Shown: in pieces, positions 1 to 20,453 of the stretch
How the letters are laid out: each line of letters starts with the position of its first letter
Position numbering within the stretch: position 1 is the stretch's first letter
NCBI RefSeq assembly: GCF_028890305.1
Contig: NZ_JARBXM010000001.1
Location: 1,096,501-1,160,500 of the forward strand
Length of the DNA stretch: 64,000 nucleotides
Reading direction: 5' to 3'
Origin: Candidatus Methanosphaera massiliense
Lineage (GTDB): Archaea; Methanobacteriota; Methanobacteria; Methanobacteriales; Methanobacteriaceae
Notes under the pieces: generated by a model
The model's input: the letters and a program-made list of their open reading frames with translations, nothing else
The model's database searches: none
Told to the model about the DNA's origin: nothing
Program-made: the position numbers and the translations under genes

Positions 1-2427
1 TAATTGGTTTATTTGGTTGTTTATTTCTTTTAGTGATATTTGTCCTTTTTTGGTTATTTGTGATAGTAGGCTTCGTACTGCTACAAAGTAAGCGGCATCC
101 ATTCTTTCATCTTCTGTTGCTTTACTTCTGCATAGGCTTAGGGCTTGTTTTAGTTTTAATGATTCTTTGAGGTATATGTCTTCTGCATCTTCTGAATTTT
201 TGGATTCTATGAAATTCACTCCTCCTTTTATTGCATCTGCTCTTTTTAGGTTACTTTCTCCATAAAAATCTGAGAAATTATAGCCATAAAATAGGTCTTT
301 ACATATTTCTAATTGTTTCTGGAATTCAGGGTATGCCGTGTTTTCTATGCTTGTATCACCATAGTTTTTCTTATCATTTGCAGTGTAATCTTTCATTGCT
401 TCTTTCAGTGCATTGGATAATCCTATGTAATCTACTATTAATCCTCCTTCTTTGTCTTTGTATACTCTGTTTACTCTTGCTATTGCCTGCATTAGTGTAT
501 GTCCTTTCATTGGCTTATATACATACATTGTTGCTAGGGAGGGCACGTCAAATCCAGTTAGCCACATATCCACTACTATTGCTATTTTAAATGGATCATT
601 GTCATCTTTGAATTTTCTTGCTAATTCTGTTTTATGTTTCTTTGTTCCAATGATTTCATGCCATTCTTCTGGGTCCTTGTTAGATGAAGTCATTATTACA
701 TTTACTTTTTTCTGCCAATTGGGTCGTATTTCTAGTATTCTTCGGTATATTTTAATTGCTATGTCTCGTGAGTATGCTACTATCATAGCTTTACCTGTTA
801 ATAGATATTCGCGGTTTTCCTCATAATGTTTCAGGATATCATCAACAAGTGTGTTAATTGTTTCTTTTGAGCCCAGAATTACTTCCATTCTACTTAATTC
901 TTTTTTACTTTTCTCGATATCTGAATTCTGGGCATTCATAGCCAGTTCATCATACTTATCATCAATTTCATGTAGAATATCATTATCTAATTTAAGATTT
1001 ACAACTCTATCCTCATAGTATATAGGTACGGTTGCCTTATCTTCAACAGACTGAGTCATATCATAGATATCAATGTAATTTCCAAAAATTTCACGAGTAC
1101 TTTTGTCTTTACTAGAAATAGGAGTACCAGTAAAGCCAATATAAGTAGCATTAGGTAAAGCATCACGTAGGCGTCTTGCATCACCTACAATAATCTTACC
1201 AGTACGTGTATCAACTTTTGTTTCAAGGCCATACTGGCTACGGTGAGCCTCATCAGTTATAACAATAACATCGTCTCTGTCAGTTAAGGACTCCTCAGAA
1301 TCATCAAACTTCTGAATAGTAGTAAAAAAGATACCATTAGCTTGTCTATTATTTAACAATTCCTTCAAGTCATCCTTACTCTCAGCCTGCACAGGCTTTT
1401 GTCTTAAAAACTCGGAACAATGAGAAAACTGTGCAAATAACTGGTTATCTAAATCATTACGATCAGTAACAACAACAAAAGTAGGATTACTCATCAACTG
1501 TTCTAACAAGTGAACATAAAAAACCATGGATAAAGACTTACCACTACCCTGTGTATGCCAGAAAACACCTGCCTTATGATTACTCTTAATAGCTTCAAGA
1601 GTACTCATAACAGCTTTACGAACAGCAAAATACTGATGATAAGCCCCTAAAATCTTACTATAAGACTGACCGTCCTTAGAAAATAATAAAAAATTTCTTA
1701 AAATATCAATAAATCTATTCTTTTCAAAGATACCTTCAAAAAATGTATTATAATCAGCAAACTCTGTAGACTCATAACTTCCATCAGTACTCTTCCACTC
1801 CATGAATCTATCCTCGCTAGAAGTTAAAGTACCTGCCTTATTAATTTCCATGTTACTCATAACACAAAAAGCATTATAATAAAATAAACGAGGAATCTTA
1901 TTCATCTGATTTTTAAGTTGAGTATAAGCATCACTAACATCAACTTCTTCCCTAGAAGGAGATTTAAGCTCCATAACAACAAGAGGTAAACCATTAACAA
2001 ATACAACAACATCAGGACGCCTAGTCTCATCCTCAGAAACATTAGTAACAGTCCACTGATTAACAACCCTAAAATCATTACGGTCAACATCCTCAAAATC
2101 AATCAACTTAACAATAACATGACGTTCCTCACCATCACTAACATATGAAACATTAATACCATTCTGAAGATAAGAAGTAAACAAATTATTTTTAAACTCA
2201 AGATTACCTAAACCAAAATCCTGCAACCGACGAATAGCCTCACAAATAGCTTCACTAGGAACATCCCTATTAATACTTCTCAAACAATCCTCTAAAACAG
2301 GAATATACAAAGGATTCTCATAATCCCTATCAATATCATATCCACACTCAACATGATAACCTAACACATCTTGAAATAATTCCAAAATAGCCTTTTCATA
2401 CTTCTCTTCACTAAAGTCAGAATTCAT
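1..2427 (-). CDS. hsdR: Type I restriction enzyme subunit R (HsdR), C-terminus cut by window edge
   Basis: This is the ATP-dependent DNA translocase and endonuclease subunit of a type I restriction enzyme. The reading frame is open from the ATG at 2427 to position 1, about 809 codons, so the last few hundred residues lie outside the window. Motifs in order: the PD-(D/E)xK nuclease region RRPDVVV...VVMELKSP near residues 135-155, Walker A TQGSGKS near 290, DEAH (ITDEAHRSQ) near 390, GFTGTP near 432 and QAIARVNR (helicase motif VI) near 646. All key residues visible in these motifs are present, so the gene looks functional. It lies downstream of the HsdM/HsdS genes on the same strand, separated from HsdM by the recombination module. 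Confidence 0.95.
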   Translation of the reverse strand, partial: MNSDFSEEKYEKAILELFQDVLGYHVECGYDIDRDYENPLYIPVLEDCLRSINRDVPSEAICEAIRRLQDFGLGNLEFKNNLFTSYLQNGINVSYVSDGEERHVIVKLIDFEDVDRNDFRVVNQWTVTNVSEDETRRPDVVVFVNGLPLVVMELKSPSREEVDVSDAYTQLKNQMNKIPRLFYYNAFCVMSNMEINKAGTLTSSEDRFMEWKSTDGSYESTEFADYNTFFEGIFEKNRFIDILRNFLLFSKDGQSYSKILGAYHQYFAVRKAVMSTLEAIKSNHKAGVFWHTQGSGKSLSMVFYVHLLEQLMSNPTFVVVTDRNDLDNQLFAQFSHCSEFLRQKPVQAESKDDLKELLNNRQANGIFFTTIQKFDDSEESLTDRDDVIVITDEAHRSQYGLETKVDTRTGKIIVGDARRLRDALPNATYIGFTGTPISSKDKSTREIFGNYIDIYDMTQSVEDKATVPIYYEDRVVNLKLDNDILHEIDDKYDELAMNAQNSDIEKSKKELSRMEVILGSKETINTLVDDILKHYEENREYLLTGKAMIVAYSRDIAIKIYRRILEIRPNWQKKVNVIMTSSNKDPEEWHEIIGTKKHKTELARKFKDDNDPFKIAIVVDMWLTGFDVPSLATMYVYKPMKGHTLMQAIARVNRVYKDKEGGLIVDYIGLSNALKEAMKDYTANDKKNYGDTSIENTAYPEFQKQLEICKDLFYGYNFSDFYGESNLKRADAIKGGVNFIESKNSEDAEDIYLKESLKLKQALSLCRSKATEDERMDAAYFVAVRSLLSQITKKGQISLKEINNQINQL

Positions 2428-2642
2428 AACACATAGCCTCGTAAAAATATAATTAATTAACTATCTATAAGTAATAACTGATAAACTTTATTAAACAAAC
2501 GAATAAAACAAATATAAAAAACAACAACAAACAATAATAAAAATAAAACAATAATATAACAATAATAGAAAAAGAATTAAAAAATACTCATAAAAATAGA
2601 ACAATATATAATAAACTGAATAAAATATGAACATTAATAAAG

Positions 2643-2662
2643 AATAAATAAAAATTTTATAG
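2643..2662 (+). repeat. hsdS recombination repeat, copy c
   Basis: AATAAATAAAAATTTTATAG sits just past the 3' end of the HsdS C-terminal-half cassette. Nineteen bases (AATAAATAAAAATTTTATA) recur in inverse orientation at copy b (5669-5692), just past the 3' end of the other C-half cassette. Together with copy d it frames the 2657-3370 cassette as an inverted-repeat pair. Confidence 0.6.
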
Positions 2663-3370
2663 TTCTACTTGTGATATATCTATTTCTCCTGACATTAATT
2701 TTGGTAATAAAGTATCTCGTAATTTTTCTAAGGACTTTATTTCTTTAAGATTATTATATATAACATCATATATTTTTGTGAAAATAGGATAATTTAATAA
2801 GTTATCTGGTGGTACAATTATAGGGAGATTTCCAATAATTTTCTTGTTTAAATTTTGTTGTACTGAACCATTAGCTATTTGTTCTATTTGTTTTTGTTTA
2901 TTTAATAAAAATAAATAAAGATATACTGATTTGATATAGGACTCACATATCATTGCACAACATGCTTGATTAGTAGTAGCCTCAGTTTTCAATAATCCTA
3001 CTCTTGCTGCAGTGCCTTTACCATATAATGCTATAATTACTGTATTTATAGGTAACAGTTTGGCTGAACTATTTATTAAACCTTCTTCTGTAATGAATTC
3101 TTCACTATCTAAAATCAAATTATTATTAATTTCACCAGTCTTTAACCAAGGAATTTTTCCATTATTCCAATATCTAGATTCTTTTCTTTTAGGTGTTCCA
3201 CCATTCATAATAGATTTTACAAATTCATTGATAGTCATTATTTTCCAATTTTCTGGAATTTTTCCTATTTTTGAATCTATAAATTTCACATTGTTTAAAA
3301 GTTTAAAATCTATATATAGATAATTATATATAAGTTTTGCAAGTTGTTCTAAATTTTTATTTAATTTCAC
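2657..3370 (-). CDS. hsdS: HsdS C-terminal half (silent specificity cassette, TRD2-B)
   Basis: A 237-residue half of a type I DNA-specificity subunit. It begins inside the central conserved region (MKLNKNLEQLAKLIYNYLYIDF). It then carries one target-recognition domain (about residues 38-200) and the distal conserved helix with LRDTLLPKLMSGEI (about 210-237). A full HsdS has two such halves, and the N-terminal recognition domain is missing. The end is closely similar to the end of the complete HsdS at 4519-5673, while its recognition domain differs. No Shine-Dalgarno sequence precedes the ATG, whose first codons lie in a recombination repeat. This suggests a storage cassette rather than a gene expressed as it stands. 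A half-HsdS that works as a homodimer remains possible. Confidence 0.85.
   Translation of the reverse strand: MKLNKNLEQLAKLIYNYLYIDFKLLNNVKFIDSKIGKIPENWKIMTINEFVKSIMNGGTPKRKESRYWNNGKIPWLKTGEINNNLILDSEEFITEEGLINSSAKLLPINTVIIALYGKGTAARVGLLKTEATTNQACCAMICESYIKSVYLYLFLLNKQKQIEQIANGSVQQNLNKKIIGNLPIIVPPDNLLNYPIFTKIYDVIYNNLKEIKSLEKLRDTLLPKLMSGEIDISQVEL
3351..3370 (-). repeat. hsdS recombination repeat, copy d
   Basis: On the minus strand the core reads AAATTAAATAAAAATTTAGA, 19 of 20 bases identical to copy a in the complete HsdS (plus strand). It encodes the start of the conserved KLNKNL stretch of the C-half cassette. Its orientation is opposite to copies a and c and the same as copy b. Confidence 0.6.
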
Positions 3371-3415
3371 AGTATAGGGATATGATTATTAATTTTTTAT
3401 TATATATTCTTTTTT

Positions 3416-4411
3416 ATGAAATCTAAAATTATTTCACAGGTATATAAACAGATGAAACATCATCTGAATAATCAACAAGAAAGAATATTGTTGAAGACTT
3501 TGAAAACGTGTTTAGCTGGTTATAATATTATAGAATATCCTAAAATTGATACTTGTAATGTTAAAGAGGATAATGTACATTTTCTTAAATTATTTTTATC
3601 ATCTAAAGAAGTTGAAGGATGTTCACCTAAAACAATAAATTACTATAAAAATACTATAGAAAGATTATTAGTTAATATAAGAAAAAATGTGATAGACATA
3701 ACAACAGATGATATACGTGAGTATTTATTTAAATATAAACTTGAACAAAAAATATCAAAGACTACTATAGATAATCTTAGAAGAATCTTTTCTAGTTTTT
3801 TTTCATGGCTAGAAGAAGAGGATTATATTATTAAAAATCCGGTAAGAAGAATACATAAAGTAAAGAGAGGACGAGTTGTAAAGGAAACATTCACTGACGA
3901 AGAACTAGAAATGTTAAGAGATTCATGTAATACTAAAAGAGATCTTTCAATGCTAGAATTATTAATATCGACAGGAATAAGAGTTGGTGAATTAGTAAAC
4001 TTAAATAAAAAAGATGTTAATTTCTATGAAAGAGAATGTAAAGTATTTGGTAAAGGAGAAAGTGAAAGAATAGTATATTTTGATGCAAGAACAAAAATAC
4101 ACTTAAAACAATACTTAACAGAAAGAACAGATAATAACCCTGCACTATTTGTAACACTAAAAAAACCATATGAAAGGTTAGGAATCACGGGAGTAGAAAC
4201 ACGAATTAAAAAATTAGGGGACAAAGCAGGAATACGAAAAGTACATCCCCACAAATTCAGAAGAACACTAGCAACAAGAGCAATAGATAAGGGAATGCCC
4301 ATAGAACATGTACAAAAATTATTAGGACACATACAAATAGACACAACAATGCAATACGCAATGGTCAATCAGATAAATGTGAAAAACGCACATAAACGAT
4401 ACATAGCTTAA
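3416..4411 (+). CDS. Tyrosine recombinase/integrase, probable hsdS invertase
   Basis: A 331-residue phage-integrase-family site-specific recombinase. A SAM-like core-binding domain lies near residues 55-145 and the catalytic domain near 165-325. Catalytic residues are visible: Arg in STGIRVGELVNL (about 190), His and Arg in HPHKFRRTLATR (about 277-280), His in LLGHIQIDTT (about 304) and the nucleophile Tyr in MQYAMV (about 312). The gene sits between two HsdS half-cassettes that are flanked by inverted copies of one motif, as the recombinases of known phase-variable hsdS loci do (for example PsrA/CreX in streptococci). That it inverts hsdS is inferred from this setting. XerA-type chromosome resolution is an alternative, but less likely here. 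Confidence 0.9.
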   Translation: MKSKIISQVYKQMKHHLNNQQERILLKTLKTCLAGYNIIEYPKIDTCNVKEDNVHFLKLFLSSKEVEGCSPKTINYYKNTIERLLVNIRKNVIDITTDDIREYLFKYKLEQKISKTTIDNLRRIFSSFFSWLEEEDYIIKNPVRRIHKVKRGRVVKETFTDEELEMLRDSCNTKRDLSMLELLISTGIRVGELVNLNKKDVNFYERECKVFGKGESERIVYFDARTKIHLKQYLTERTDNNPALFVTLKKPYERLGITGVETRIKKLGDKAGIRKVHPHKFRRTLATRAIDKGMPIEHVQKLLGHIQIDTTMQYAMVNQINVKNAHKRYIA

Positions 4412-4518
4412 ATTAATTTATTAATAATATTCATATTATACATAGTCTTATATAACAATGTTAATAGCAATTTAATAAATAATAAAAATTATATCCTATT
4501 ATCTTAAAAAAAATAATT

Positions 4519-5673
4519 ATGGAAACGAGATTCTATAATTTAAAGAATTTATTAGAAATTAAATATGGTAAAAGTCAAAAAAATATTGAAGAACCGTGCG
4601 GTAAATATCCTATTTTAGGTACTGGAGGTGTTATAGGCCATACAAATCAATTTTTATATGATAAACCATCAGTATTAATAGGACGTAAAGGAACTATCGA
4701 TAAAATACAATATATAGAACAACCATTTTGGACGATAGATACTTTATTTTACACAATTATCAATGAAAAACTTATAATTCCTAAATTTTTGTATTATCGT
4801 CTTTTATTAGTTGATTTAACGTTATATAATGAAGGAACATCTATTCCCAGTCTAACAACCAAAACATTATATAAACTTGAAATAGATATTCCTACAGTTA
4901 ATATTCAAAAAAAGATTTTGAAAATATTGAATAATCTAGATAAAAAAATAGAAATTAATAAAAAAATAAATAAAAATTTAGACAAAATATTAGATTTATT
5001 CTTTAAAAAATATTATTTAGATAATTTTGTAAATAAAGTACCTGATAACTGGAATATAACTAAAATTAAAGATTTACCTTTAATTATTACAGACTATGTT
5101 GCTAATGGTAGTTTTGCTTCTTTAAAAAATAATGTTACAATATTAGACCATGAAGATTATTCTTATTTTATCAGAAATACTGATTTAAAAAATAAAAGAT
5201 TTAAAAAATATGTAAATAAACATTCTTATGATTATCTTAATAAATCTTCGTTATATGGAAATGAATTGTTAATTTCAAATGTGGGAGATGTTGGTTCTGT
5301 ATATTTATGTCCTTTTTTAGATAAACCTATGACTTTAGGAAATAATATGATATTAGTTAAAAGCAAAAAAGAAGCAGTAGCTAATTTAAATTATTATCTT
5401 TTCTTATTATTTAGATCCAAATATGGGCAATTTTTATTAAATAGTATTACAACAGGATCAGTTCAATTAAAATTCAATAAAACCGAATTTAGGTCACTGA
5501 AAGTTATTATTCCTGATGATGATAATATAATAAAGTTTAATAAACAAATTAAACCTTTGTTTGAATATAAAAGGGTAATTTCTAAAGAAATAGAGTCATT
5601 AAGTAAATTACGAGATACATTATTACCAAAATTAATGTCTGGAGAATTAGATGTTTCAGGAGTTGATATATAA
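4519..5673 (+). CDS. hsdS: Type I specificity subunit HsdS, complete
   Basis: A 384-residue DNA-recognition subunit with both target-recognition domains: TRD1 about residues 1-130, central conserved helix IQKKILKILNNLDKKIEINKKINKN about 130-155, TRD2 about 170-350, distal helix with LRDTLLPKLMSGELD at the end. The stop codon and 3' end fall in recombination repeat b, and repeat a lies in the central helix. The gene runs opposite to hsdM and hsdR and has no clear Shine-Dalgarno site, although an AT-rich stretch upstream could hold a promoter. Inverting the 4980-5672 segment would move its C-half onto the HsdS N-half that follows hsdM. Confidence 0.92.
   Translation: METRFYNLKNLLEIKYGKSQKNIEEPCGKYPILGTGGVIGHTNQFLYDKPSVLIGRKGTIDKIQYIEQPFWTIDTLFYTIINEKLIIPKFLYYRLLLVDLTLYNEGTSIPSLTTKTLYKLEIDIPTVNIQKKILKILNNLDKKIEINKKINKNLDKILDLFFKKYYLDNFVNKVPDNWNITKIKDLPLIITDYVANGSFASLKNNVTILDHEDYSYFIRNTDLKNKRFKKYVNKHSYDYLNKSSLYGNELLISNVGDVGSVYLCPFLDKPMTLGNNMILVKSKKEAVANLNYYLFLLFRSKYGQFLLNSITTGSVQLKFNKTEFRSLKVIIPDDDNIIKFNKQIKPLFEYKRVISKEIESLSKLRDTLLPKLMSGELDVSGVDI
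4960..4979 (+). repeat. hsdS recombination repeat, copy a
   Basis: AAAAAAATAAATAAAAATTT inside the central conserved region of the complete HsdS, coding for KKINKNL. The same 20 bases occur inverted at 5673-5692 (copy b). The two copies therefore bound the second half of HsdS as a perfect 20-bp inverted repeat about 690 bp apart. Confidence 0.7.
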
Positions 5674-6202
5674 AATTTTTATTTATTTTTTTGTTAACTT
5701 CAATTTTATTATCTATATTTGAAAAGATTGCACTTATTTTTTTTTGTATTGTTAAAGGAGGTATTTTTATTTCTAATGATTTTAAAGAATCAATTTGAAC
5801 TCTTTGTCTACCTGACGTTCCAGTCATAGATTTTATAGCTTGATTTCTAAAAATATTACTTATTGCTAAATAATAGATATAAGAAATGTCACTAATATTG
5901 TCTTTATTTCGAAGAATAATAAATTCAGTTGATCCAAAACCAATTTCATTTTCTTCTAAAAAATTTATTTGTGATGTCTTACCATTCTCTAAACAAGGTG
6001 TTATTCTTGCAAAAAGAACATCATTATTTCTAAATTTACTTCCGCCATTATATTTATCTATCGTGTAAGAATTAACATATTTTTGATGAGGTAGGACATT
6101 TTCCATCGCTACTTTTTTTGAAATAGTACCTTTTTTTAATGTTTCTTTAGGATTAAAATCAATGAATTCATCACATCTAACCCATTTCCATTCAGAATTC
6201 AT
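5582..6202 (-). CDS. hsdS: HsdS N-terminal half ending in an antisense tail (TRD1-B)
   Basis: A 206-residue specificity-subunit half directly after hsdM. Its ATG at 6202 lies inside the end of hsdM (11-base overlap), so the two are translationally coupled. Residues 1-145 form one target-recognition domain and IQKKISAIFSNIDNKIEVNKKINKN is the central conserved helix. After KINKN the frame crosses repeat b and reads the antisense strand of the other HsdS C-terminus (FIYQLLKHL...), about 30 unrelated residues before a stop. This is the footprint of an inversion junction. In the present orientation the hsdM-linked HsdS is half-length. Flipping 4980-5672 would give a full two-domain HsdS in the same operon. 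Confidence 0.9.
   Translation of the reverse strand: MNSEWKWVRCDEFIDFNPKETLKKGTISKKVAMENVLPHQKYVNSYTIDKYNGGSKFRNNDVLFARITPCLENGKTSQINFLEENEIGFGSTEFIILRNKDNISDISYIYYLAISNIFRNQAIKSMTGTSGRQRVQIDSLKSLEIKIPPLTIQKKISAIFSNIDNKIEVNKKINKNFIYQLLKHLILQTLILVIMYLVIYLMTLFL
5673..5692 (-). repeat. hsdS recombination repeat, copy b
   Basis: On the minus strand this reads AAAAAAATAAATAAAAATTT, the exact inverse of copy a. It ends the coding homology of the hsdM-linked HsdS half and overlaps the stop of the plus-strand HsdS. Confidence 0.7.
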
Positions 6203-7697
6203 ATCCTATCTCCTTCAGTGATTTTTTGATTTCTTTTTCTAGTTTATGTGATTCTTCAAATAGTTCTCCTAGTTCTGTTGTTAATGTTTTCATTTTTACT
6301 TCGAATGGTATTCCATCGTCTTCTTCTGGTTTGAATCCCACGTATCTGCCAGGTGTTAGAATGTAATCTTGTTCTTTGATATCATCGAGTGTTGCTATTT
6401 TACTGTATCCTTTTTCTTCTTCTAGTGTTCCTTCTTGATATTGGTGGTATGTTTGTGCTAGTTGTTGTATGTCTTCTTGTGTTAGTTCTCTGAGTTTTCG
6501 TGAGACCATTGTTCCTAGTTCTCTTGCATCAATGAATAGTGTTTTTCCTTTTTGTTTTTTGTTTCTATCTATAAACCATAGACTTACTGGTATTCCTGTT
6601 GTGTAGAATAATTGTCCGGGTAGTGCTATGATACAGTCTACTAAATCATCTTCAATTATTGCTTGTCTGATTTTTCCTTCTCCACTTGTTGTTGATGATA
6701 ATGCTCCATTTGCTAGTACTAGACCTAATTTTCCTGTTGGTGCTAAATGGTATATCATGTGTTGTATCCATGCGAAGTTTGCGTTTCCCTTTGGAGGTAT
6801 TCCATATTTCCATCGTTGATCTTCTTTTAATTGTTCTTGTCCCCATTTTTTGAGGTTAAATGGTGGATTTGCCATTATATAATCTGCTTTTAGTGTTGGA
6901 TGTAAATCATTTAGGAATGTATCTGCATTGTGTTTTCCTAGATCTGCTTCTATTGTTCTTATTGCTAAATTCATTTTAGCCATTTTCCATGTTGTTGGAT
7001 TTGATTCTTGTCCATATACTGATATGTTATCTATATTTCCACTATGGTTTTCAATGAATTTTTGTGATTGAACAAACATTCCACCACTTCCACAGCATGG
7101 ATCGTAGATTCTGCCTTTGTATGGTTCTAGTATTTCAACTATTGTTTTTACTATACAGGAGGGTGTGTAAAATTCTCCTGCCTTTTTACCTTCACTTTCT
7201 GCAAATTTTCCAAGACAGTATTCATAGGTTCTTCCAAGAATATCTTTTTTATCTCCTTTCTCAGCCATTTTAATATTAGTGAAAATATCTATTACTGCTC
7301 CTAGTTTTTGTTTATCTAAATCATTTGATGAAAATGTTTTTGGTAGTACGTCCTTTAGTGTACTGTTTTCTTTTTCTATTGATCTCATTGCATTATCTAT
7401 CGTTATTCCATTATCTTCTTTATGTGCATGTTCTGATATAACATTCCATCTTGCTTCTGGAGGTACGTAGAATATATTTTTTTCTTCATAAAAGTCTTTA
7501 TCTTCTTCAAAGCCTTCTCCTTCATCTATTAATTCCTGATGTCTTTCTTCAAATTTATCTGATATGTATTTTAGGAAAATTAATCCTAATACTACATGTT
7601 TATATTCTGAAGCATCCATACTACCTCTTAATTCTTCTGCAGCTTGCCATATTTCTTGTTCGAAACCTATCTCGCTATTATTATCTTTTTTTACCAT
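6192..7697 (-). CDS. hsdM: Type I DNA methyltransferase subunit HsdM (first copy)
   Basis: N6-adenine methyltransferase subunit that partners HsdS and HsdR. The start is ATG 7697 (MVKKDNNSEIGFEQ), with a GGTG ribosome site just upstream. A slightly longer frame exists but would bypass that site. The N-terminal helical domain (MDASEYKHVVLGLIFLKYISDKFEER) is typical. The SAM-binding motif DPCCGSGGMF lies near residue 200 and the catalytic NPPF near 275, followed by the TTGIPVSLWF region. The length of about 501 residues is normal for HsdM. It overlaps the following HsdS half by 11 bases and follows the second HsdM by about 60 bases on the same strand, so one operon is likely. Confidence 0.96.
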   Translation of the reverse strand: MVKKDNNSEIGFEQEIWQAAEELRGSMDASEYKHVVLGLIFLKYISDKFEERHQELIDEGEGFEEDKDFYEEKNIFYVPPEARWNVISEHAHKEDNGITIDNAMRSIEKENSTLKDVLPKTFSSNDLDKQKLGAVIDIFTNIKMAEKGDKKDILGRTYEYCLGKFAESEGKKAGEFYTPSCIVKTIVEILEPYKGRIYDPCCGSGGMFVQSQKFIENHSGNIDNISVYGQESNPTTWKMAKMNLAIRTIEADLGKHNADTFLNDLHPTLKADYIMANPPFNLKKWGQEQLKEDQRWKYGIPPKGNANFAWIQHMIYHLAPTGKLGLVLANGALSSTTSGEGKIRQAIIEDDLVDCIIALPGQLFYTTGIPVSLWFIDRNKKQKGKTLFIDARELGTMVSRKLRELTQEDIQQLAQTYHQYQEGTLEEEKGYSKIATLDDIKEQDYILTPGRYVGFKPEEDDGIPFEVKMKTLTTELGELFEESHKLEKEIKKSLKEIGYEF

Positions 7698-7758
7698 AAG
7701 TTGCACCTATTATTATATTACTTATTCTCTTTTGTTATTTTTTGTTATATTTCTTATT

Positions 7759-9276
7759 TTAATGTAATAATCCTTCTATTTTAAGTTTTTTACTCTGTTT
7801 TTCTATTTTTTCATCTAATTCATCTAATTTTTTATTAGCTTCGATTAGTTTTTCAGATATTTCTTTAAGATCTATTAAATCTCCTTCTTCGAAGGTATCT
7901 ACGTATCGTGGTATGTTTAGGTTGTAGTCATTTTCTTTTATTTCTTCTTGTGTTGCTTTGTGTGAGTATTTATCGATTTCTTTTCTATTTTGGTATGTGT
8001 TTACTATTTTATCTATGTCTTGTTCTCTTAGTTTGTTTTGTCTTCTGACTTTCATGTATTCCTGTGATGCGTCTATGAATAATATGCTGTCATCTTCTTT
8101 TCTATCTTTTTTTAATACCATGATTATTGTTGGTATTCCAGTTCCATAGAATAGGTTGGAGGGTAGTCCTATTATTGCGTCTATGTAGTTTTTCTCTTCT
8201 ATTAAGTGTTTTCTTATTTTTTCTTCTGCTGCTCCTCTGAAGAGTACTCCGTGTGGTAGTACTACCGCCATTGTTCCATTATCTTTTAGGTGGTATATCA
8301 TGTGTAGTACAAATGCGTAGTCTGCTTTGCTTTTTGGAGGTAGTTTTCCATATTCTGCAAATCGAGGATCTTCCTGAAATTTCTTGGAGCTACTCCATTT
8401 TGCACTGAATGGAGGATTTGCTACTATTGCATTGAATTGTTGGTTTTTGAATGCTTTGTCTTCTAGACTGTCTCCCAGTTTAATGTCAAAATCTTCAGAT
8501 TTTATATTGTGCATAATCATATTCATTAGTGACATGTTATATGTTGTGCTGTTTAATTCTTCTCCATAGAATTTTAACTCATCAGTATATTTATTTAATT
8601 CTAACAATGATGAACCAGATCCACATGTTGGGTCATATACTGTACTGATTTCTGTTTCAGTATGTGTTACTATTTTTGCAAGTATTTCTGACACTGAATG
8701 TGGTGTGTAGAATTCACCTGCTTTTTTGCCTGCTATTTGTGAATATTTGCTAATAATGTATTCGAAGATGTCACCAGCATTATTTGATGTTAATTGAATA
8801 GTAGACATTCTTAGGATTATTTCTGAAATAGTTTTATTTTTTTCTTCTAATGTTTTTCCTAATCTTGAAGAGTTAAAGTTTAAATCTTCCAGAATATTGG
8901 TTATTGATTTATTTTGGTTGTTTTTATTTAATGAATTTTTTAAATTAAATATTGTGAGTTCTAAAGTCTCTATTGTTAGCTCATCTTTTTTTGCTTTGTT
9001 AACTAATTCGTTAAATAAATAATCGGGATTAATGAAATATCCGTTCACATGTTCTGATTCAATTTTGATGTCCTGATAATCTTCAGATTCATTGTATGCT
9101 TTTTTGAGATTTATGGGTTCATTGTTAAATTTTTCTCTTAGAAATTTTTCTTCTTTTTTTGATAGATATTTATAAACTATTAAACATAATACATAATTTT
9201 TTATATCATAGGGGCGAGAATATCTAATTAATCTATCTATTGTTTCTTTTTGTTTTATATATTCTTTATTTACCAT
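7759..9276 (-). CDS. hsdM: Second HsdM-type DNA methyltransferase
   Basis: A 505-residue HsdM-family N6-adenine methyltransferase only distantly similar to its neighbour at 6192. The motifs are intact: GEFYTPHSVSEIL about 185, DPTCGSGSSLLEL near 215, VANPPFSAKW near 286 and GTGIPTIIMVL further on, with a C-terminal coiled region (EKLIEANKKLDELDEKIEKQ). It lies between two DUF1874-like genes and the other HsdM, all on the same strand with short gaps (17 and about 60 bases). The divergent half-HsdS at 10341 could be its specificity partner, because no other HsdS is spare. This pairing is an inference. Confidence 0.93.
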   Translation of the reverse strand: MVNKEYIKQKETIDRLIRYSRPYDIKNYVLCLIVYKYLSKKEEKFLREKFNNEPINLKKAYNESEDYQDIKIESEHVNGYFINPDYLFNELVNKAKKDELTIETLELTIFNLKNSLNKNNQNKSITNILEDLNFNSSRLGKTLEEKNKTISEIILRMSTIQLTSNNAGDIFEYIISKYSQIAGKKAGEFYTPHSVSEILAKIVTHTETEISTVYDPTCGSGSSLLELNKYTDELKFYGEELNSTTYNMSLMNMIMHNIKSEDFDIKLGDSLEDKAFKNQQFNAIVANPPFSAKWSSSKKFQEDPRFAEYGKLPPKSKADYAFVLHMIYHLKDNGTMAVVLPHGVLFRGAAEEKIRKHLIEEKNYIDAIIGLPSNLFYGTGIPTIIMVLKKDRKEDDSILFIDASQEYMKVRRQNKLREQDIDKIVNTYQNRKEIDKYSHKATQEEIKENDYNLNIPRYVDTFEEGDLIDLKEISEKLIEANKKLDELDEKIEKQSKKLKIEGLLH

Positions 9277-9293
9277 CTTTTCACCATTTTTTT

Positions 9294-9590
9294 TTAGTAT
9301 ATTATTTTTATTCTTTCATATCTGAGAGTGTTTTCTTTATGATATGATGTGTGGCTTCTACCAAATTCTGATGTTATTGCATATATTTCGTCTCCTTTTT
9401 CTAATGTTATTTCTTGGGTTTGACTAAATATACTGAGGTGTTCGGATATGTATTTTGATTTTATGGAATATGTTTTATCTTCTTCTAATATTATTTTAAA
9501 GAAGTCTTTTTCTTTTATTTCTTCTGTTTCTAGTTCATGTTCTGTATTTGTTAACATATTTAGTGAAAAATTATCTGTAATATATATCAT
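9294..9590 (-). CDS. DUF1874/STIV-B116-like small protein, degenerate copy
   Basis: About 98 residues from ATG 9590 (MIYITDNFSLNML), with an AGGTCGTGA ribosome-site-like stretch just upstream. The N-terminus matches the DUF1874 signature (YLxNAFSxNML), and the C-terminal EKGDEIYAITSEFG...TLRYERIKIIY resembles the strand pattern of the family. The central AIGH motif, which carries the catalytic His of AcrIII-1 ring nucleases, is absent. If the fold is right, this copy may bind ligand without cleaving it. It is translated 13 bases after its intact-looking paralogue and 17 bases before the second HsdM. The assignment rests on motif memory only. Confidence 0.55.
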   Translation of the reverse strand: MIYITDNFSLNMLTNTEHELETEEIKEKDFFKIILEEDKTYSIKSKYISEHLSIFSQTQEITLEKGDEIYAITSEFGRSHTSYHKENTLRYERIKIIY

Positions 9591-9603
9591 CTGATTCACG
9601 ACC

Positions 9604-9873
9604 TTAGTTTATTATTATTCTTTGATATTCGTATTGATTTATGGAGTTACCGTAACCCTGTACTACGTATAATATGTCATTTTTTTCTAGTTGTATATTT
9701 ATTCTGTTTTTTTCTATTCCTAATATATTTGCTATTTGTTGATGACCTATAGCAGATACTAATTCTAATTTTTCTTCTTGTATTTCTCTGTAGGATGATG
9801 GTTCTATTTTTATTCTTTGTTTTGTATTTGATTTTAGCATTTTTGGACTGAATGCATTTGATATATATTTCAT
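9604..9873 (-). CDS. DUF1874 (AcrIII-1/Crn2-type) putative ring nuclease
   Basis: 89 residues from ATG 9873, preceded by a strong GGAGTTGA Shine-Dalgarno sequence 5 bases upstream. The ATG at 9903 lies before that site and is less likely. The sequence carries the DUF1874 hallmarks in order: YISNAFSPKML at the N-terminus, SAIGHQQIANILG with the conserved His at about residue 44, and NRINIQLEKNDILYVVQ followed by a final strand. In characterised relatives (SIRV1 gp29, AcrIII-1; prokaryotic Crn2) the fold degrades cyclic tetra-adenylate made by type III CRISPR systems, using the equivalent His. Here it leads a type I restriction-modification operon, which is an unusual setting. The family call is fairly sure. 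The activity is inferred. Confidence 0.72.
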   Translation of the reverse strand: MKYISNAFSPKMLKSNTKQRIKIEPSSYREIQEEKLELVSAIGHQQIANILGIEKNRINIQLEKNDILYVVQGYGNSINQYEYQRIIIN

Positions 9874-9923
9874 ATTTTTCAACTCCTGTATGTTGTAATA
9901 CATACGTTTCTTTTCTACACTAT

Positions 9924-10038
9924 AATTTATACTTAGTAGTATATAAAGGTTTTGTATGTTTAACTACATACATTTAATTTCATATTAAATAATTTATATT
10001 TAGTAGTATATAAAGGTTTTGTATGTAAAATTACATAC
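9924..10038 (-). promoter_or_regulatory. Tandem TATA promoter/operator repeats upstream of the DUF1874-RM operon
   Basis: A 36-bp sequence occurs twice (9924-9959 and 9991-10026) with a single mismatch. Each copy contains TATATAAAGG, which on the minus strand is the archaeal TATA box CCTTTATATA, and ends in GTATGT. Each is followed by ACATAC after 6 bases, forming GTATGT-N6-ACATAC palindromes at 9954-9971 and 10021-10038. The nearer TATA box (about 9940-9947) is placed to start a transcript about 40 bases before the ATG at 9873. The arrangement suggests repression by a dimeric regulator covering the TATA boxes. Confidence 0.55.
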
Positions 10039-10145
10039 TTAACTAATTTTACTCATGTAATTTAAAATAAATTGATTAAAGATGTTATTTCAACATTTAA
10101 AAACTTAAAACAAATAAAATAAAATTTATTACTATCCATTAGTCC

Positions 10146-10210
10146 TGTAAATTAAATAACATACATGATTAAATAAATTAATCAGTATATGTAAATTAGG
10201 TAACATACAT
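10146..10210. repeat. Further operator-like repeats in the divergent intergenic region
   Basis: TGTAAATTAAATAACATACA (10146-10165) and TGTAAATTAGGTAACATACA (10190-10209) are near-identical, and a third degenerate version runs through about 10242-10275. All share the ACATAC half-site found at the palindromes 9954-9971 and 10021-10038. They lie between the defence operon (minus) and the half-HsdS (plus), so one regulator could govern both. The rest of the 9904-10340 gap is AT-rich with no other gene visible. Confidence 0.4.
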
Positions 10211-10340
10211 TAAAAAAAATATAATTTATTTATAAAATTTTATATGTAAATATTGTATTATAAAATACATACATTTATATTGGATGAAAATAATAATATG
10301 TAATAGAAGAAAAAAGCTATTGTAATAAAGGTGAATAAAT

Positions 10341-10931
10341 TTGAATAAAAAAGTTAAATTAGGCGATATAGCCCAGATAAAAAGTGGATTTCATATAGAC
10401 AGAAAAAATAGACAATTGGAAGGTATAGACAACAAAGCTGTAAAGACAAAAATACTAGCCCCAACTCAAAATGATAGTGTCATATGTGAAGTAACAACTA
10501 AAGATATTTTTGAACCAGAATCAATAAACAAAGAATTCTTTACTAAAAAAGACGACATTGTTTTCAATATAATAAAAGAAGGAGAAGCAAAAATTATCCG
10601 AGAAGAGGACACAGGAATATTAGTACCACTTAACTTTTTAATCATCAGAATAATGGATATAACTAAATATGATCCTACATTCCTAGCATTCCTATTAAAT
10701 TACAAAAAAACAAAAAATCAAATTTCTAGGTTAAGTGAAAGCTCATCCATGTTACCTAGAGTAACAAGAAAAGATTTAAGTAATCTCAAGTTAAATATTC
10801 CTGATTACAATACACAGAAAGAATATGGACTTTTAATGAAAATGATTGAAGAAAAGATAAAAATAAAAGAAAAAACTATTCAATACAATAAAGATTCCAT
10901 CACAGGATTACTTGATAAAATAGAAGGATAA
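10341..10931 (+). CDS. hsdS: Half-size type I specificity protein (single recognition domain)
   Basis: 196 residues from a TTG start (10341) behind an AAAGGTGA ribosome site. One HsdS-type recognition domain (KLGDIAQIKSGFHIDRK at the start, SSSMLPRVTRKDLSNLKLNIPDYNTQKEYG before the helix) is followed by a single coiled conserved helix (IEEKIKIKEKTIQYNKDSITGLLDKIEG). It has half the usual HsdS length. Such proteins can act as dimers, as engineered and natural half-HsdS proteins do. It is divergent from the operon that contains the unpaired second HsdM, its likeliest partner. Confidence 0.82.
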   Translation: MNKKVKLGDIAQIKSGFHIDRKNRQLEGIDNKAVKTKILAPTQNDSVICEVTTKDIFEPESINKEFFTKKDDIVFNIIKEGEAKIIREEDTGILVPLNFLIIRIMDITKYDPTFLAFLLNYKKTKNQISRLSESSSMLPRVTRKDLSNLKLNIPDYNTQKEYGLLMKMIEEKIKIKEKTIQYNKDSITGLLDKIEG

Positions 10932-15030: not shown

Positions 15031-15867
15031 TTACCAAATGTTTATACCTAAATATTCATTAACCCAATTTGTGTAAAATGATGTTAAATCAACTATTTTA
15101 TAGAATTCACGTTCAAATATTTCTATTAATTTGTTTAAATTTTCATACATTGATTTATATATTTTAGATTTAATTTTACGCCATACATCTTCAATTGGAT
15201 TTAAATCAGGGCAATATGGTTTTAAAAAGATTAAATTTATGTTCAATATTTCACAGGCTTTTTCAACAATTTTAGCATGATGTATTCTTGCGTTATCTAA
15301 AATAATATTTATTCTTTTTTCTTTTGAGTTTATTTCCATTATTTTTGGATTTGATAGGTTATTCAGTAATCTTAATCTTTTTTCATACCCTATTTTTCTT
15401 GAATTGTTGTTGTCTTCTTTCCTGCAAATCTTTTGAATTTTTTCTATGGAAATTTGTTTGGAATTGTCATTATATAGTTCATCATTGATTTTATTTATCA
15501 AATCCATTTCATTTAGTGATTTAGAGGATAGATATTTTTTTATTTTTTCATCAGATAAGTTTTCATTGTTTATTGCATCTTTGATTAATTGTTTACCTAA
15601 TCTATTAGTCATGTTTTCAATACGGTAATGGCATAAGGTAATTACAAAGTGAAATGCATTGTTTTTTGTATTTACCTCCATATATGAGTTGCAATTGATT
15701 CCTTGAAATCCAGTTACATTTATTCCAAATTTTACTGGATGTTTTGTTTGTATATTTTTTTCTCCAGGAGCATATAATATTCTTGTAACATTTGGAACAT
15801 TTTGACAAGATGTTTCATCTAAAAAAGCAAAATATTCTGTTTGTATGTCTGTTGTCTTTAGTTTTTT
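15031..15867 (-). CDS. IS630 transposase, second frame (DDE catalytic domain)
   Basis: About 275 codons readable without a stop from just past the A8 slippery run. All three catalytic acids are visible: Asp in EYFAFLDETSCQNV, Asp in IILDNARIHHAKI and Glu in LNPIEDVWRKIKSKIYKS. The frame has no sensible start of its own before the Met at 15681, which lies after the first Asp, so it is expected to be made as a fusion with the upstream HTH frame by -1 slippage at 15862-15869. The C-terminus ends inside the left terminal repeat. Confidence 0.85.
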   Translation of the reverse strand, partial: KKLKTTDIQTEYFAFLDETSCQNVPNVTRILYAPGEKNIQTKHPVKFGINVTGFQGINCNSYMEVNTKNNAFHFVITLCHYRIENMTNRLGKQLIKDAINNENLSDEKIKKYLSSKSLNEMDLINKINDELYNDNSKQISIEKIQKICRKEDNNNSRKIGYEKRLRLLNNLSNPKIMEINSKEKRINIILDNARIHHAKIVEKACEILNINLIFLKPYCPDLNPIEDVWRKIKSKIYKSMYENLNKLIEIFEREFYKIVDLTSFYTNWVNEYLGINIW

Positions 15868-16367
15868 TTAAGATCTTCTTCAGGATTCTTAGGACGTGTG
15901 TTGTATTTAATGAATGGTTTTCCATAGTTTAAATTTAATTTTTGTCTTGTAATAACCCATACTTGCTTCTCACTATATGTTATACCATATTTTTCTTTAA
16001 TTAAGTTTCGTACATCTTTTAAATTATATTTCTCTTCATTTCCAGTTATGATTTCATTCAATTCTTTTAATTGTTGATCAGTTAAATATGATTTTCTTCC
16101 ACAATTGGAATAATTTGAAAATAAACCATCAACGCCATTTTCATTATATTGTTTGACCCAACGTTCGCCTGTTTTTCTTGAAATATTAATGTTTTTTGAG
16201 GCTTTAGCAATACTTTCACCATTTGCAACCATGTTAATTAACAAAAGACGCCTATAAACAGTGTAATATTCCTTGTACTCTTTCAGCATGTCTGAAATTT
16301 CTGAAAGTTCTAAATGTTTTTCAATTTTATTATTAAATTTTTCCATGAATATACATTTATAATCCAT
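15858..16367 (-). CDS. IS630 transposase, first frame (helix-turn-helix)
   Basis: 169 residues with two HTH units: ISDMLKEYKEYYTVYRRLLLINMVANGESIAKASKNINISRKTGERWVKQYNENGVDGL and a second around LTDQQLKELNEII...KYGITYSEKQVWVITRQKLNLNYGKP. It binds the terminal repeats. The frame stops (TAA, 15858-15860) immediately after a run of eight A (T8 on the plus strand at 15862-15869). A -1 shift there joins it to the catalytic frame. The ATG at 16367 lies in the right terminal repeat, and the ATG at 16346 is an alternative. Confidence 0.85.
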   Translation of the reverse strand: MDYKCIFMEKFNNKIEKHLELSEISDMLKEYKEYYTVYRRLLLINMVANGESIAKASKNINISRKTGERWVKQYNENGVDGLFSNYSNCGRKSYLTDQQLKELNEIITGNEEKYNLKDVRNLIKEKYGITYSEKQVWVITRQKLNLNYGKPFIKYNTRPKNPEEDLKKN

Positions 16368-16481: not shown

Positions 16482-19400
16482 ATTAAAAATCAATATAGAG
16501 TATTATTCTTTGTAATGGTTATCTTCATGGTTTTAATAGGAGTATCAGCTTTATCTGCTGCTGATAATTCAACTGTAAATAGTAATGAAGTAACAGCAGC
16601 TACTAATGATGTTATAGCTACATCTGATGTTGATACAAGTATAACTAGTAATGATGAAGTTATTTTAGAATCTAGTTCAAAGACTATTTCAACTGTGAAT
16701 GATAATTCAAAAATTAGTACTAATAAGATTAGAAGTAATTCCAAATCTCTAAAAAATGATGCTAATACTACTAGAAATACATATTATGTATCATTAAATG
16801 GTTCCTCAACAAATGATGGATTAACACCAAGTACAGCTTATGATTTTAAATCAGTATTTGGATCATTTCCTAACGGTGAAACAAAATTCAATAATTCAAT
16901 CATAATTGTTCAAGAAGGAGTTTATAATATAAATGGGTCAGTAGCACCTCAAGGATTAATATACACATCCGGTGATAATTGTGGTAATTTTGTATTAAAT
17001 GTTAAAGGAAATGGAACTGTAGTATTTAATGGACAAACTGGTTCAACTATATGGTACAATATAGCATCATCTAGCAGTGGATCAAGTATAACATTAAATA
17101 ACATTAAATTTACTAATGGAACAGCATTCTTAAATTCTGGTTGGTTTACAAAAAATTATAAGTATGGTGGAGCATTATATAATAGAAGAGGAGATTTGAC
17201 TGTCATTAATTGTACATTTGAAAATAACTCTGCAAATGGTACAGCATACAGTTTAGGTGGTGCAATAACAAATTATCAAGGAAAATTAGCAATTATTGAT
17301 TCTATATTCCAAAATAACTTTGTGAACGGTACCGTAACTTATGGTGGAGCAGTAGCAAACATGGAAGGAACATGTACAATTGAAAATTCAACATTTAAAA
17401 ATAACAGTGCAAAAGCTACAACCAAAGTTAATGATGCTCAGAGTATTAGTCCAATAGAAGCAGCTTATGCTGGAGCTGTAGGTACTTACTCTTATGGAAC
17501 AACATATGTAACTGGTAGTACTTTTATAAACAACACCGCTGGTAGTGGTGGAGCTGTAGGTAATGTAAACTCTATAACTATAGTATCCAACAGTACATTT
17601 ATTGAAAATAATGCTGAAAATGGTGGAGCTATAGGAAGTTATACTAGTAGTTATGTTTTAGATAATCAGTATACCATTATTGATAATAACACTATTATTA
17701 ACAATACTGGTGTAAATGGTGGAGGTATTTCTGTATTAAGTGGAAATTCCACAGTAAACAGTAATGTTATAGTTAATAACACTGCGGTAAGTGGTGGAGC
17801 TATTGCAGTAGAAACAGGTAATGTAACTATTACTAAAAACATTATTGTAAATAACACCGCTGTAAATGGTGGAGGTATTGGAAGCTATGAAGGTAATACT
17901 GTAGTTACTGAAAATACTATAGCAAATAACAAAGCAACATCATTAGCTGGAGCAATAGGTACAAGTAATGGAATAATAACAATAAATAATAACACTATAG
18001 CAAACAACACAGCAGCACAAGGTGGAGCAGTATACAATAATCAAACAACAGGTATGTTAAATAACATATTCTTTAATAACACAGTAACATCTGAGAATGG
18101 CTATGTAATATTTAATGAACCTAGAAAAAGTATTACTATAGTTGACAACAAATTCTACAACAACACAGATTTCAAACGTGACATGTTATTCAATGATTTA
18201 ACATCAGAAAGAACAACAGGAAACATTTACATAAGTAACTTCTTAGAAACTAACACAGACACAAAACTTGAAAATGTAACAATACCATCTGATTATACTA
18301 CAACAATAACTATTGATATCAGAGATGTATACAATGACACAGTTAGAAATGGTAACATAACTGTATACATTAATGGTAAAAAATATAATACATACGAAGT
18401 AAAAGATGGTGAAAGTGCATTAATCACAATTCCAAAAAGTGATTTAGGCGCTTTAAATAAATTAGTATTTGAATACACATCACCAGACCTTAGTTATCAA
18501 CCATTAAATCTTACAGCAACAATTATTTCAATTAGAAATACAAAAGTTACTGTAACAGCTAAGGATACTAACTATGGTAATAAAACAAGCATAGTTACAA
18601 AATTAGTAGATGAAGATGGTAATCCTGTAGCAAATGCTAACGTAGTATTATATATCAATGGCAAAGCTATGGAGGTAACAACTGATAATGAAGGTTCATA
18701 CACTTATGAACTAGTAACTGATAATCTTGATGTAAACACTGTAGTAGCTATATATAATGGTGATGCATATTATAGGTCATCTTATAATGTGGATACATTC
18801 AAGGTATATAGATTAAACACAACTACAAGTGTAACTATACCAAGAATAACAGTAGGTGACGATGCTACAATAAAAGGTAATTTAGTAGACCAATTTAGTA
18901 CACCAATAGCAAATGCTGACATGGTATTAATTATTAACGGTACACACTACGCTGTTAAAACTGATGAAAATGGTTCATTCACATACAATATACAGGGTAT
19001 AACAAATAATACTGTTATAACAGCAGTATACTCTGGTAATAAAACATATGCTGAATCATTAACTTCAGAAGTAGCACAATTAGTAAAAAGAGCTACAATA
19101 GTTACAATAGACCCAATAAAAGGTATTATTGGAGAAAAAATAACATTAACTGCTCATGTAATTGATGAAAAAGGTAACAGTGTAAGTGGAGGAAATCTTG
19201 TATTCAAACTTAATGGTAAAACTTTAAGAATTGATGGTTCTTTCAATAGTACTGCAAGTCCATTAAAATTCAAAGTAGTAAATGGAACAGTTGAATACAC
19301 TATGATAGCAGATCTTTATTTAAGAAATGCTAAAAACATTACAGCAACATATAGTGGATCAAGTGCCTGTGAAAGTAATACATCCAACGTAGCAGAAGCT

Positions 19401-20081
19401 CAAATAGCAAAACGTAGTGCAACAATAAAAGTAACTACAATCAACAATACACTTGCAGATAAAGACATAGTGTTCACAGCAAATATTACAGATGTAACAC
19501 CACATGCTGAAAATATTACAGCTGTTGACAATGGTGGATATGTCATATTTAAAATTAATGGTAAAACATTAAAAGATGAAAACGATTCACCAATAAAAGT
19601 TGCTGTAGAAAACAATATTGCATCTTATGTATATCATGTACCTGTAGGTACAGCCTCTGTTGATGCTAATGGTAACCTAAGAAGCTATACTGTAACAGCT
19701 GTATATGCAAATGATATATTCTATCCAGATACTAGAAATATAACAGCATTCTCCGTTGAAAAATCACCAATCAACATACAATTTGGAGAAGTAGTTATTA
19801 ATAATGCTACTAAAACATTATCTATAAAAGGTAATATCACAGATTACAATAATAACTTACTTGTTGGAACTAACAAAGTTTGCGTAAAAGTAAATGGTGT
19901 AACAATTAAAGATGAAAACAATAAAACTATATACTACACAGTAAATAATGGTAATATTGATTTATCTAACATAAACGTATCCAACTTCAAAAAATACAAT
20001 AATGTTATGATTGTTACCGGAGACAGACAAGCATATTTAGAAGGTAGAAATTCAACATCTAATATAACAATAGAAGATTAA
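16482..20081 (+). CDS. Adhesin-like secreted beta-helix protein with Ig-like repeats
   Basis: About 1,199 residues. A signal peptide (KNQYRVLFFVMVIFMVLIGVSALSAADN) is followed by a low-complexity Ser/Asn/Thr stretch. A parallel beta-helix follows (about residues 110-560) made of repeats such as FINNTAxxGGA and VNNTAVNGGGI, then four to five Ig-like (Big-type) domains with repeated VxLxINGK and TVTAVY motifs. No C-terminal membrane anchor is seen. It resembles the adhesin-like proteins of gut Methanobacteriales, thought to bind other cells or host glycans. The first ATG (16515) leaves no basic signal-peptide region. The only good ribosome site (GGAGTGG, from 16469) fits an AUU codon at 16482, used as the start here. 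Confidence 0.85.
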   Translation: MKNQYRVLFFVMVIFMVLIGVSALSAADNSTVNSNEVTAATNDVIATSDVDTSITSNDEVILESSSKTISTVNDNSKISTNKIRSNSKSLKNDANTTRNTYYVSLNGSSTNDGLTPSTAYDFKSVFGSFPNGETKFNNSIIIVQEGVYNINGSVAPQGLIYTSGDNCGNFVLNVKGNGTVVFNGQTGSTIWYNIASSSSGSSITLNNIKFTNGTAFLNSGWFTKNYKYGGALYNRRGDLTVINCTFENNSANGTAYSLGGAITNYQGKLAIIDSIFQNNFVNGTVTYGGAVANMEGTCTIENSTFKNNSAKATTKVNDAQSISPIEAAYAGAVGTYSYGTTYVTGSTFINNTAGSGGAVGNVNSITIVSNSTFIENNAENGGAIGSYTSSYVLDNQYTIIDNNTIINNTGVNGGGISVLSGNSTVNSNVIVNNTAVSGGAIAVETGNVTITKNIIVNNTAVNGGGIGSYEGNTVVTENTIANNKATSLAGAIGTSNGIITINNNTIANNTAAQGGAVYNNQTTGMLNNIFFNNTVTSENGYVIFNEPRKSITIVDNKFYNNTDFKRDMLFNDLTSERTTGNIYISNFLETNTDTKLENVTIPSDYTTTITIDIRDVYNDTVRNGNITVYINGKKYNTYEVKDGESALITIPKSDLGALNKLVFEYTSPDLSYQPLNLTATIISIRNTKVTVTAKDTNYGNKTSIVTKLVDEDGNPVANANVVLYINGKAMEVTTDNEGSYTYELVTDNLDVNTVVAIYNGDAYYRSSYNVDTFKVYRLNTTTSVTIPRITVGDDATIKGNLVDQFSTPIANADMVLIINGTHYAVKTDENGSFTYNIQGITNNTVITAVYSGNKTYAESLTSEVAQLVKRATIVTIDPIKGIIGEKITLTAHVIDEKGNSVSGGNLVFKLNGKTLRIDGSFNSTASPLKFKVVNGTVEYTMIADLYLRNAKNITATYSGSSACESNTSNVAEAQIAKRSATIKVTTINNTLADKDIVFTANITDVTPHAENITAVDNGGYVIFKINGKTLKDENDSPIKVAVENNIASYVYHVPVGTASVDANGNLRSYTVTAVYANDIFYPDTRNITAFSVEKSPINIQFGEVVINNATKTLSIKGNITDYNNNLLVGTNKVCVKVNGVTIKDENNKTIYYTVNNGNIDLSNINVSNFKKYNNVMIVTGDRQAYLEGRNSTSNITIED

Positions 20082-20123
20082 ATTCTTCAATTTAATCTCT
20101 TTTTCTTTTTTTTTAGAAAATAT

Positions 20124-20262: not shown

Positions 20263-20453
20263 TTTGAATAATGTTAAGAACTATGTTTTAAACTTTATTT
20301 TATTAGTTTTTAATATTTTTAATAATAGATTACTTTTTTTGGGAATTTTTTTTAAATCAAAAAGTTTTTTTAAACGTCATATATACCTATATATATGTTT
20401 ATTTTTTTTGTAAACATTTATTTATTATTTAATTGATAGGAGGCGAAAATATA

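Follow-up and report, generated by a model that had tools for sequence, protein, structure and literature searches.

A candidate hsdS shufflon in the archaeon Candidatus Methanosphaera massiliense, with a recombination-site type also found in bacterial relatives

Shufflons of type I restriction-modification (R-M) hsdS genes are known from bacteria, and among the closest described is the type I R-M shufflon of the Lactococcus JM1 and JM2 megaplasmids pMPJM1 and pMPJM2 (PMC6458302). The pneumococcal cod (SpnD39III) locus with PsrA likewise combines inverting hsdS genes with a dedicated tyrosine recombinase and a very short repeat (the 15-bp IR1), and comprises three hsdS genes and three repeat pairs of 15, 298, and 85 base pairs (bp) (PMC7096588; PMC7394358). 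The locus considered here lies in a 64,000-nucleotide stretch of the chromosome of the archaeon Candidatus Methanosphaera massiliense (hereafter, the window; contig NZ_JARBXM010000001.1, positions 1,096,501 to 1,160,500). Between hsdR and hsdM, it contains two HsdS N-halves, two HsdS C-halves, and a tyrosine recombinase, an ensemble that is very probably a self-contained hsdS shufflon.

The Lactococcus recombinase is 58.6% identical to that of the window, and the Lactococcus locus has a like succession of parts (hsdM, N-half, C-cassettes, recombinase, N-half, and hsdR), along which four sites of the form TAAAT-N4-ATTTA alternate. The four central bases (N4) are CATC/GATG there and AAAA in the window, however, and the Lactococcus recombinase runs with hsdM rather than against it; moreover, a DUF3800 gene precedes hsdR in Lactococcus, and the carrier is a bacterial plasmid instead of an archaeal chromosome. 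For this comparison, records NZ_CP016746.2 and NZ_CP016745.2 were presumed, from strain name and size, to match pMPJM1 and pMPJM2. Cassettes of the Bacteroides type (L136, L137, L139, L165, and L178) have a recombinase of the same family (56-61% identity), a related HsdM (58-68%), and the same site arms, but their sites fall into two classes (TCTC and GATA), all in direct orientation, which suggests excision or cassette exchange rather than inversion; L179 likewise has two site classes in direct orientation. Relative to the pneumococcal locus, the window has one core in four copies in place of three repeat pairs (PMC7096588; PMC7394358).

With respect to archaea, a survey of small inversions gives none in its six archaeal datasets (PMC5903667), the main text of a 2020 REBASE survey contains no word starting with "archae" (PMC7394358), and the main text of an archaeal R-M survey contains no word starting with "inversion" or "invert" and refers to recombining S subunits only as a subject treated in largely bacterial work (PMC10609329). 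No report of archaeal hsdS inversion was found among the literature matches listed, which consisted of titles and abstract openings and left most subscription journals outside coverage. Three things appear to be new: that the host is an archaeon, that the site grammar is shared, and that the module has likely been exchanged across domains.

Architecture of the locus and its junctions

From the left, the locus comprises hsdR, C-half c, the recombinase gene, a full-length hsdS, N-half b, hsdM1, and a second hsdM (Table 1). A preceding sequence-only reading had listed two N-halves, two C-halves, a recombinase, and four repeat copies, and these coordinates hold in a 13-mer search and against PF01420. 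The distinct hsdS parts, two N-halves and two C-halves, are present in opposite orientation, with both strands in use, and the five Methylase_S (PF01420) matches of the whole genome (1.786 Mb, two contigs) all lie within window positions 2,801-10,883. The open reading frame (ORF) of the full-length plus-strand HsdS matches Methylase_S in two stretches (9.4e-30), hsdR is intact as an open frame of 1011 amino acids (aa), and HsdM1 and HsdM2 pass their Pfam cut-offs. The recombinase exceeds the cut-off of NF040815 (recomb_XerA_Arch; 220 bits) and retains an intact catalytic set (R189, K213, H279, R282, H305, and Y314, assigned by motif and aligned with the XerA-like chains 4a8e and 5hxy). N-half b, previously delimited to 5692-6202, is indeed an N-half, but its ORF (206 aa) presently runs on into the antisense of the neighboring C-half a and stops at 5582.

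The four junctions have in common a 13-bp core, TAAATAAAAATTT, of which the 64-kb window contains four copies, both strands considered, exclusively at junctions c, d, a, and b. The copies alternate in orientation (c+, d-, a+, b-) and share the N4 AAAA, provided that the outer base of one arm is relaxed to A/T for b and c. As had been proposed, they bound the C-halves as inverted repeats: copies a and b match exactly over 20 bp (4960-4979 and 5673-5692), and copies c and d are opposed with the core alone in common; exact inverted matches also connect b with c (19 bp) and a with d (16 bp). The longest exact inverted repeat in dinucleotide shuffles of 2601-6210 (n = 200) had a mean length of 13.35 bp and a maximum of 17 bp. 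A non-homopolymer 13-mer with four copies arose in 2 of 1000 shuffles of 2401-6300, so that the chance of the observed multiplicity is about 0.002, a figure that does not yet count the placement of all four copies at boundaries. The core is not uniquely frequent in the window, where four other 13-mers have four copies and one has five; one of the former, AAAAATAAATAAA, overlaps the same repeat at copies a and b. The earlier statement that the repeat encodes KINKNL at all four junctions holds in part: three copies overlap this motif, whereas copy c lies outside coding sequence apart from its final base, part of a stop codon.

In the proposed mechanism, the recombinase would bind dyads of the form TAAAY-N4-RTTTA (in the window, TAAAT-AAAA-ATTT[A/T]) and would join pairs of sites with an equal N4 center. 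The four alternating sites would thereby cut the locus into three invertible segments, namely C-cassette c, the recombinase together with N-half a, and C-cassette a, and inversions would put either C-half behind the free-standing N-half a or the hsdM1-linked N-half b. The pair of target-recognition domains (TRDs) differs from one HsdS to another, so that the motif methylated and restricted by the type I enzyme would change from state to state. A script that allowed only inversions, between any two opposed cores, and started from window positions 2401-6300 arrived at 16 arrangements and four in-frame full-length HsdS proteins (N-a/C-a and N-a/C-c, 384 aa each; N-b/C-a and N-b/C-c, 407 aa each). 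A complete HsdS is formed with N-half a alone in six arrangements, with N-half b alone in six, with both in two, and with neither in two; the inverted repeats at the TRD boundaries preserve the reading frame after inversion. The script thus reproduces, in frame, the predictions that inverting a-b gives the hsdM-linked N-half the first C-half (a), that inverting a-d joins the plus-strand N-half to the second C-half (c) and flips the recombinase, and that four HsdS proteins are possible. Sites in direct repeat (a and c, b and d) fall outside the inversion-only rule; recombination within such a pair would excise DNA.

Table 1. Coordinates of the hsd locus, its junction sites, and adjoining genes within the window
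Feature	Position	Strand	Evidence and remarks
hsdR, 5' part	1..2427	-	Whole gene 1011 aa, with 609 bp more left of the window; full ORF = L199 9392-12427
Site c, 13-bp core	2645..2657	+	Past the stop codon of C-half c; last base inside that codon
C-half cassette c, headless HsdS C-half, 237 aa from GTG	2657..3370	-	PF01420 2.1e-22
Site d, 13-bp core	3351..3363	-	Exact dyad TAAAT-AAAA-ATTTA
Tyrosine recombinase, 331 aa	3416..4411	+	NF040815 252.8 bits; PF00589
N-half a, TRD1 of the only full-length HsdS in the present arrangement	4519..4966	+	PF01420; TRD profile 4543-4959
Site a, 13-bp core	4967..4979	+	Exact dyad TAAAT-AAAA-ATTTA; codes I-N-K-N-L
C-half cassette a, TRD2 of full-length HsdS 4519-5673 (384 aa)	4980..5673	+	ORF; PF01420
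Site b, 13-bp core	5673..5685	-	Doubles as the 3' end of C-half a and the end of N-half b
N-half b, directly behind hsdM1, 11-nt overlap	5686..6202	-	PF01420 8.8e-16; ORF 5582-6202
hsdM1, 504 aa	6192..7706	-	PF02384 1.1e-114; PF12161
Second hsdM, HsdM2 type, 505 aa	7759..9276	-	TIGR00497 372.9 bits
Single-TRD HsdS-like protein, 196 aa	10341..10931	+	PF01420 5.8e-6; blastp to four similar proteins, 7.5e-19 to 6.4e-8

Site type and rearrangement in relatives

The recombinase matched 14 plasmid records. Four Lactococcus plasmids (pJM2A, pUCCL627F, pJM1A, and pUC073A) each carry four sites of the sequence TAAAT-CATC/GATG-ATTTA, and are 100% identical in the middle segment with the recombinase and in the 600-bp flank on either side. 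All copies of C-cassette X (635 bp) are 100.0% identical to one another, as are all copies of C-cassette Y (650 bp), but the cassettes differ in slot and orientation among the plasmids. X adjoins hsdM and Y lies beyond in pJM2A and pUC073A, the two are swapped and inverted in pUCCL627F, and the ends of the inverted blastn pieces coincide with the 14-bp sites to within 2 bases. Comparison of these near-identical plasmids thus shows that cassettes have been rearranged at these sites in bacterial relatives; the Methanosphaera locus is of the same make in its parts, frames, and sites, and may switch as well. Among archaea, Methanobrevibacter cuticularis (L040/L123), a methanogen of another genus, has the order hsdR-, full HsdS-, recombinase-, C-half+, N-half-, and hsdM1-, with an HsdR adjoining its recombinase that is 64% identical to that of the window. 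Its four sites have the order and orientation of those in the window, and its segment with the recombinase and N-half is flipped, precisely as in the predicted product of the a-d inversion. Three Ligilactobacillus salivarius plasmids have four sites each (ACTA/TAGT) and are neutral on inversion, since only two of their six cassettes are alike (99.8%, in the same slot and orientation). As a separate observation, a contig of a metagenome-assembled genome (MAG; L140 4215-11464) contains a tandem duplication of 3,618 bases, its copies 100% identical, that begins and ends at the site itself; either recombination or faulty assembly may have produced it.

Junctions in most of the HsdM1-type loci examined fit TAAAY-N4-RTTTA, with one N4 per site class and locus. 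The expectation of an archaeal example built on a very short AT-rich repeat was correct as to the host, but the repeat is the local version of a site that also occurs in bacteria. Four alternating sites with the same N4 occur in the window (AAAA), M. cuticularis (CATA), Oribacterium (GATA), a Bacteroidaceae MAG (GATA), and L125 (AAAA), the last of which is labeled as a Bacteroidota MAG, has 29% GC, and may be misbinned. In 16 archaeal loci with a recombinase, hsdS, and an HsdM1 match, 67 dyads were counted in 74,482 bases (two of them from the window), against a mean of 6.1 and a maximum of 11 in 50 shuffles. The 53 bacterial loci with HsdS were typed by their better match to HsdM1 or HsdM2 of the window, and at least two dyads with the same N4 were present in 23 of the 30 HsdM1-type loci, none of the 15 HsdM2-type loci, and two of the eight untyped loci. 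In Methanobrevibacter, N4 follows the position in hsdS, with TTGA at the 5' start, AAAA, AATA, or AGTA in the middle, and usually TGTG at the 3' end; these three classes would allow separate shuffling of both recognition domains. A broader proposal, for which we see the chances as evenly balanced, is that one recombinase family reads the fixed arms and uses N4 as an address for pairing, the whole forming a mobile epigenetic switch of bacteria and gut-associated methanogens. In four Methanobrevibacter loci with the same recombinase family and an HsdM2-type hsdM (L075, L077, L083, and L107), another repeat, centered on TTGATGCAACAGATTTTCGCACAGAAATTAAGA, stands at the hsdS junctions in place of the dyad.

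The recombinase itself is widespread. Matches with E<=1e-60 occur in 44 of the 138 genomes searched in its family (own genome included), and a scan of named genomes returned 220 relatives, the best 80 of which were kept; these are 55-69% identical and come from Methanobrevibacter, Methanosphaera, Bacteroides, Parabacteroides, Dysgonomonas, Prevotella, and Clostridia, among others. Recombinases of this degree of identity adjoin hsdS in methanogens, Bacteroidota, and Bacillota, and an iterated TRD profile detected an HsdS frame in the fetched stretch for 69 of the best 80, with HsdM as well in 56. In a first set of 54 loci, the window included, blastp recovered the recombinase in 50, of which 31 have HsdS and 22 also HsdM; the recombinase therefore also lives without hsdS, 19 of the 50 loci having none, though some of these stretches end early. 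Scans of IMG/VR gave two recombinase relatives and no match to a 23-base junction string. For a recombinase tree (FastTree), 140 sequences with at least 250 residues matched were reduced to 113 unique ones (47 archaeal, 63 bacterial, and 3 outgroup), with domain labels taken from record titles. Parsimony places three changes between archaea and bacteria on this tree, and backbone support is low (0.215 at one node); the tree accordingly speaks for transfer between the domains and not for its direction. The recombinase module has thus likely been exchanged between archaea and bacteria.

Other loci of the genus deserve mention. Two Methanosphaera copies of the recombinase (L038 8548-9543, the same place as L212, and L037 5733-6728), one of them on plasmid pNP174, have no neighboring hsdM or full hsdS; a dyad, TAAATCACTATTTA, lies about 100 bp downstream of each, and use on other genes is possible. 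Genome G014, presumably that of Methanosphaera stadtmanae, contains two inverted hsdS genes with a perfect inverted repeat of 578 bp, next to an hsdM of the HsdM2 type (56%; L200 8333-12453). Between the two hsdS genes, what reads as a recombinase-like gene (9596-10641) is split over two overlapping frames, and the whole may be another hsdS inversion locus of the genus, distinct from the present one.

Alternative explanations

Several observations weigh against the shufflon interpretation. The locus is known from one strain and in one assembled arrangement, and no second state was found in the only other genome of the species, G155, a draft of approximately 110 contigs that is 91% complete. 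G155 has no close recombinase and no Methylase_S match, although the missing hsdS may be an assembly gap. The flanks of the window match two different G155 contigs (left flank, 86-87%; right side, 80-83%), and beside the right flank (L243 3690-7402, G155:C85) lies another type I system, with HsdR 27% and an HsdM2-type protein 62% identical. As that system is different and its contig ends inside hsdM, such that neither an empty site nor a second state is readable, the place of the locus is variable and G155 is silent on switching. Sites b and c depart from the strict dyad with a right arm of ATTTT, leaving a and d as the strict copies, and 7 of the 30 bacterial HsdM1-type loci lack a same-N4 pair. 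In Lactococcus, pJM1A holds X in both slots in opposite orientation and has no Y, a state that a simple inversion scheme cannot give and that needs either exchange between two copies or an assembly fault; since the orientation of the recombinase segment is the same in all four plasmids, evidence for inversion of the recombinase and N-half comes only from comparison between genera. Finally, part of the dyad signal reflects coding constraint, as 20 control hsdS stretches from contigs without the close recombinase also show an excess (10 dyads in 45.9 kb; shuffle mean 3.4, maximum 8), some of these contigs being short enough that a recombinase may lie past their ends.

This last point leads to the explanation that the repeat is merely the conserved HsdS coding stretch K-I-N-K-N-L in an AT-rich genome, its inverted copies being duplicated gene pieces that do not switch. 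Three of the four copies do overlap this motif of the central conserved HsdS region, and two of the ten control dyads are the same string, TAAATAAAAATTTA (L236 and L238). A coding motif, however, accounts for only part of the dyad excess: recombinase-linked archaeal loci have about four times as many dyads per kb as control hsdS (67 in 74.5 kb versus 10 in 45.9 kb), N4 is uniform inside a locus and different between loci, copy c matches b over 19 bp despite being non-coding, and the Lactococcus breakpoints mark exact rearrangement between relatives with identical sites. The idea was rejected on these grounds, and we consider it improbable. Somewhat less so, but still unlikely, is that a once-working shufflon is now locked or decaying in Methanosphaera; the deviation of b and c in the last arm base would fit this, and the presence of another system beside the right flank in G155 implies that the locus is dispensable, yet the chimeric frames and catalytic residues are intact, and exact matches of 20, 19, and 16 bp between copies persist in a stretch of 24% GC.

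Least credible of all is that rearrangement, if any, proceeds by homologous recombination or by a recombinase acting in trans, the adjacent gene being the integrase of something else. The first-set loci without hsdS (some of them at contig ends) leave room for such a reading, as does the presumed M. stadtmanae hsdS pair, whose 578-bp inverted repeats could recombine homologously. Stretches of 13-20 bp are, however, a very short substrate for homologous recombination, hsdS accompanies most of the best recombinase relatives, and only one other recombinase match exists in the same genome, at 33% identity and a distance of 745 kb. With these alternatives weighed, the observation made by the sequence-only reading is confirmed, and its interpretation as an hsdS shufflon is supported.

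Neighboring genes and implications

The second hsdM and the single-TRD HsdS-like gene (together, 7759-10931) adjoin the shufflon, the latter on the opposite strand; relatives of the single-TRD protein elsewhere lie immediately upstream of HsdM2-type genes, and an L. salivarius plasmid (L205) has in one row a single-TRD S gene, an N-6 methylase, a class I methyltransferase, a shuffled S gene, the recombinase, and hsdR. Farther right in the window, a broken transposase-like frame pair (15031-16367), as read from translations, lies beside two long Asn/Thr-rich repeat proteins (16515-23162), which by the same reading may be of adhesin type.

If the locus switches, cultures of Candidatus Methanosphaera massiliense would contain a mixture of cells that differ in methylome and, by extension, in virus resistance. 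From the site rule, exact junctions can be predicted and sought in any metagenome, and sequence searches for such loci become possible in both domains. Should the notion of a mobile switch with N4 as its address prove true, phase variation of methylation would be a working property of archaea.

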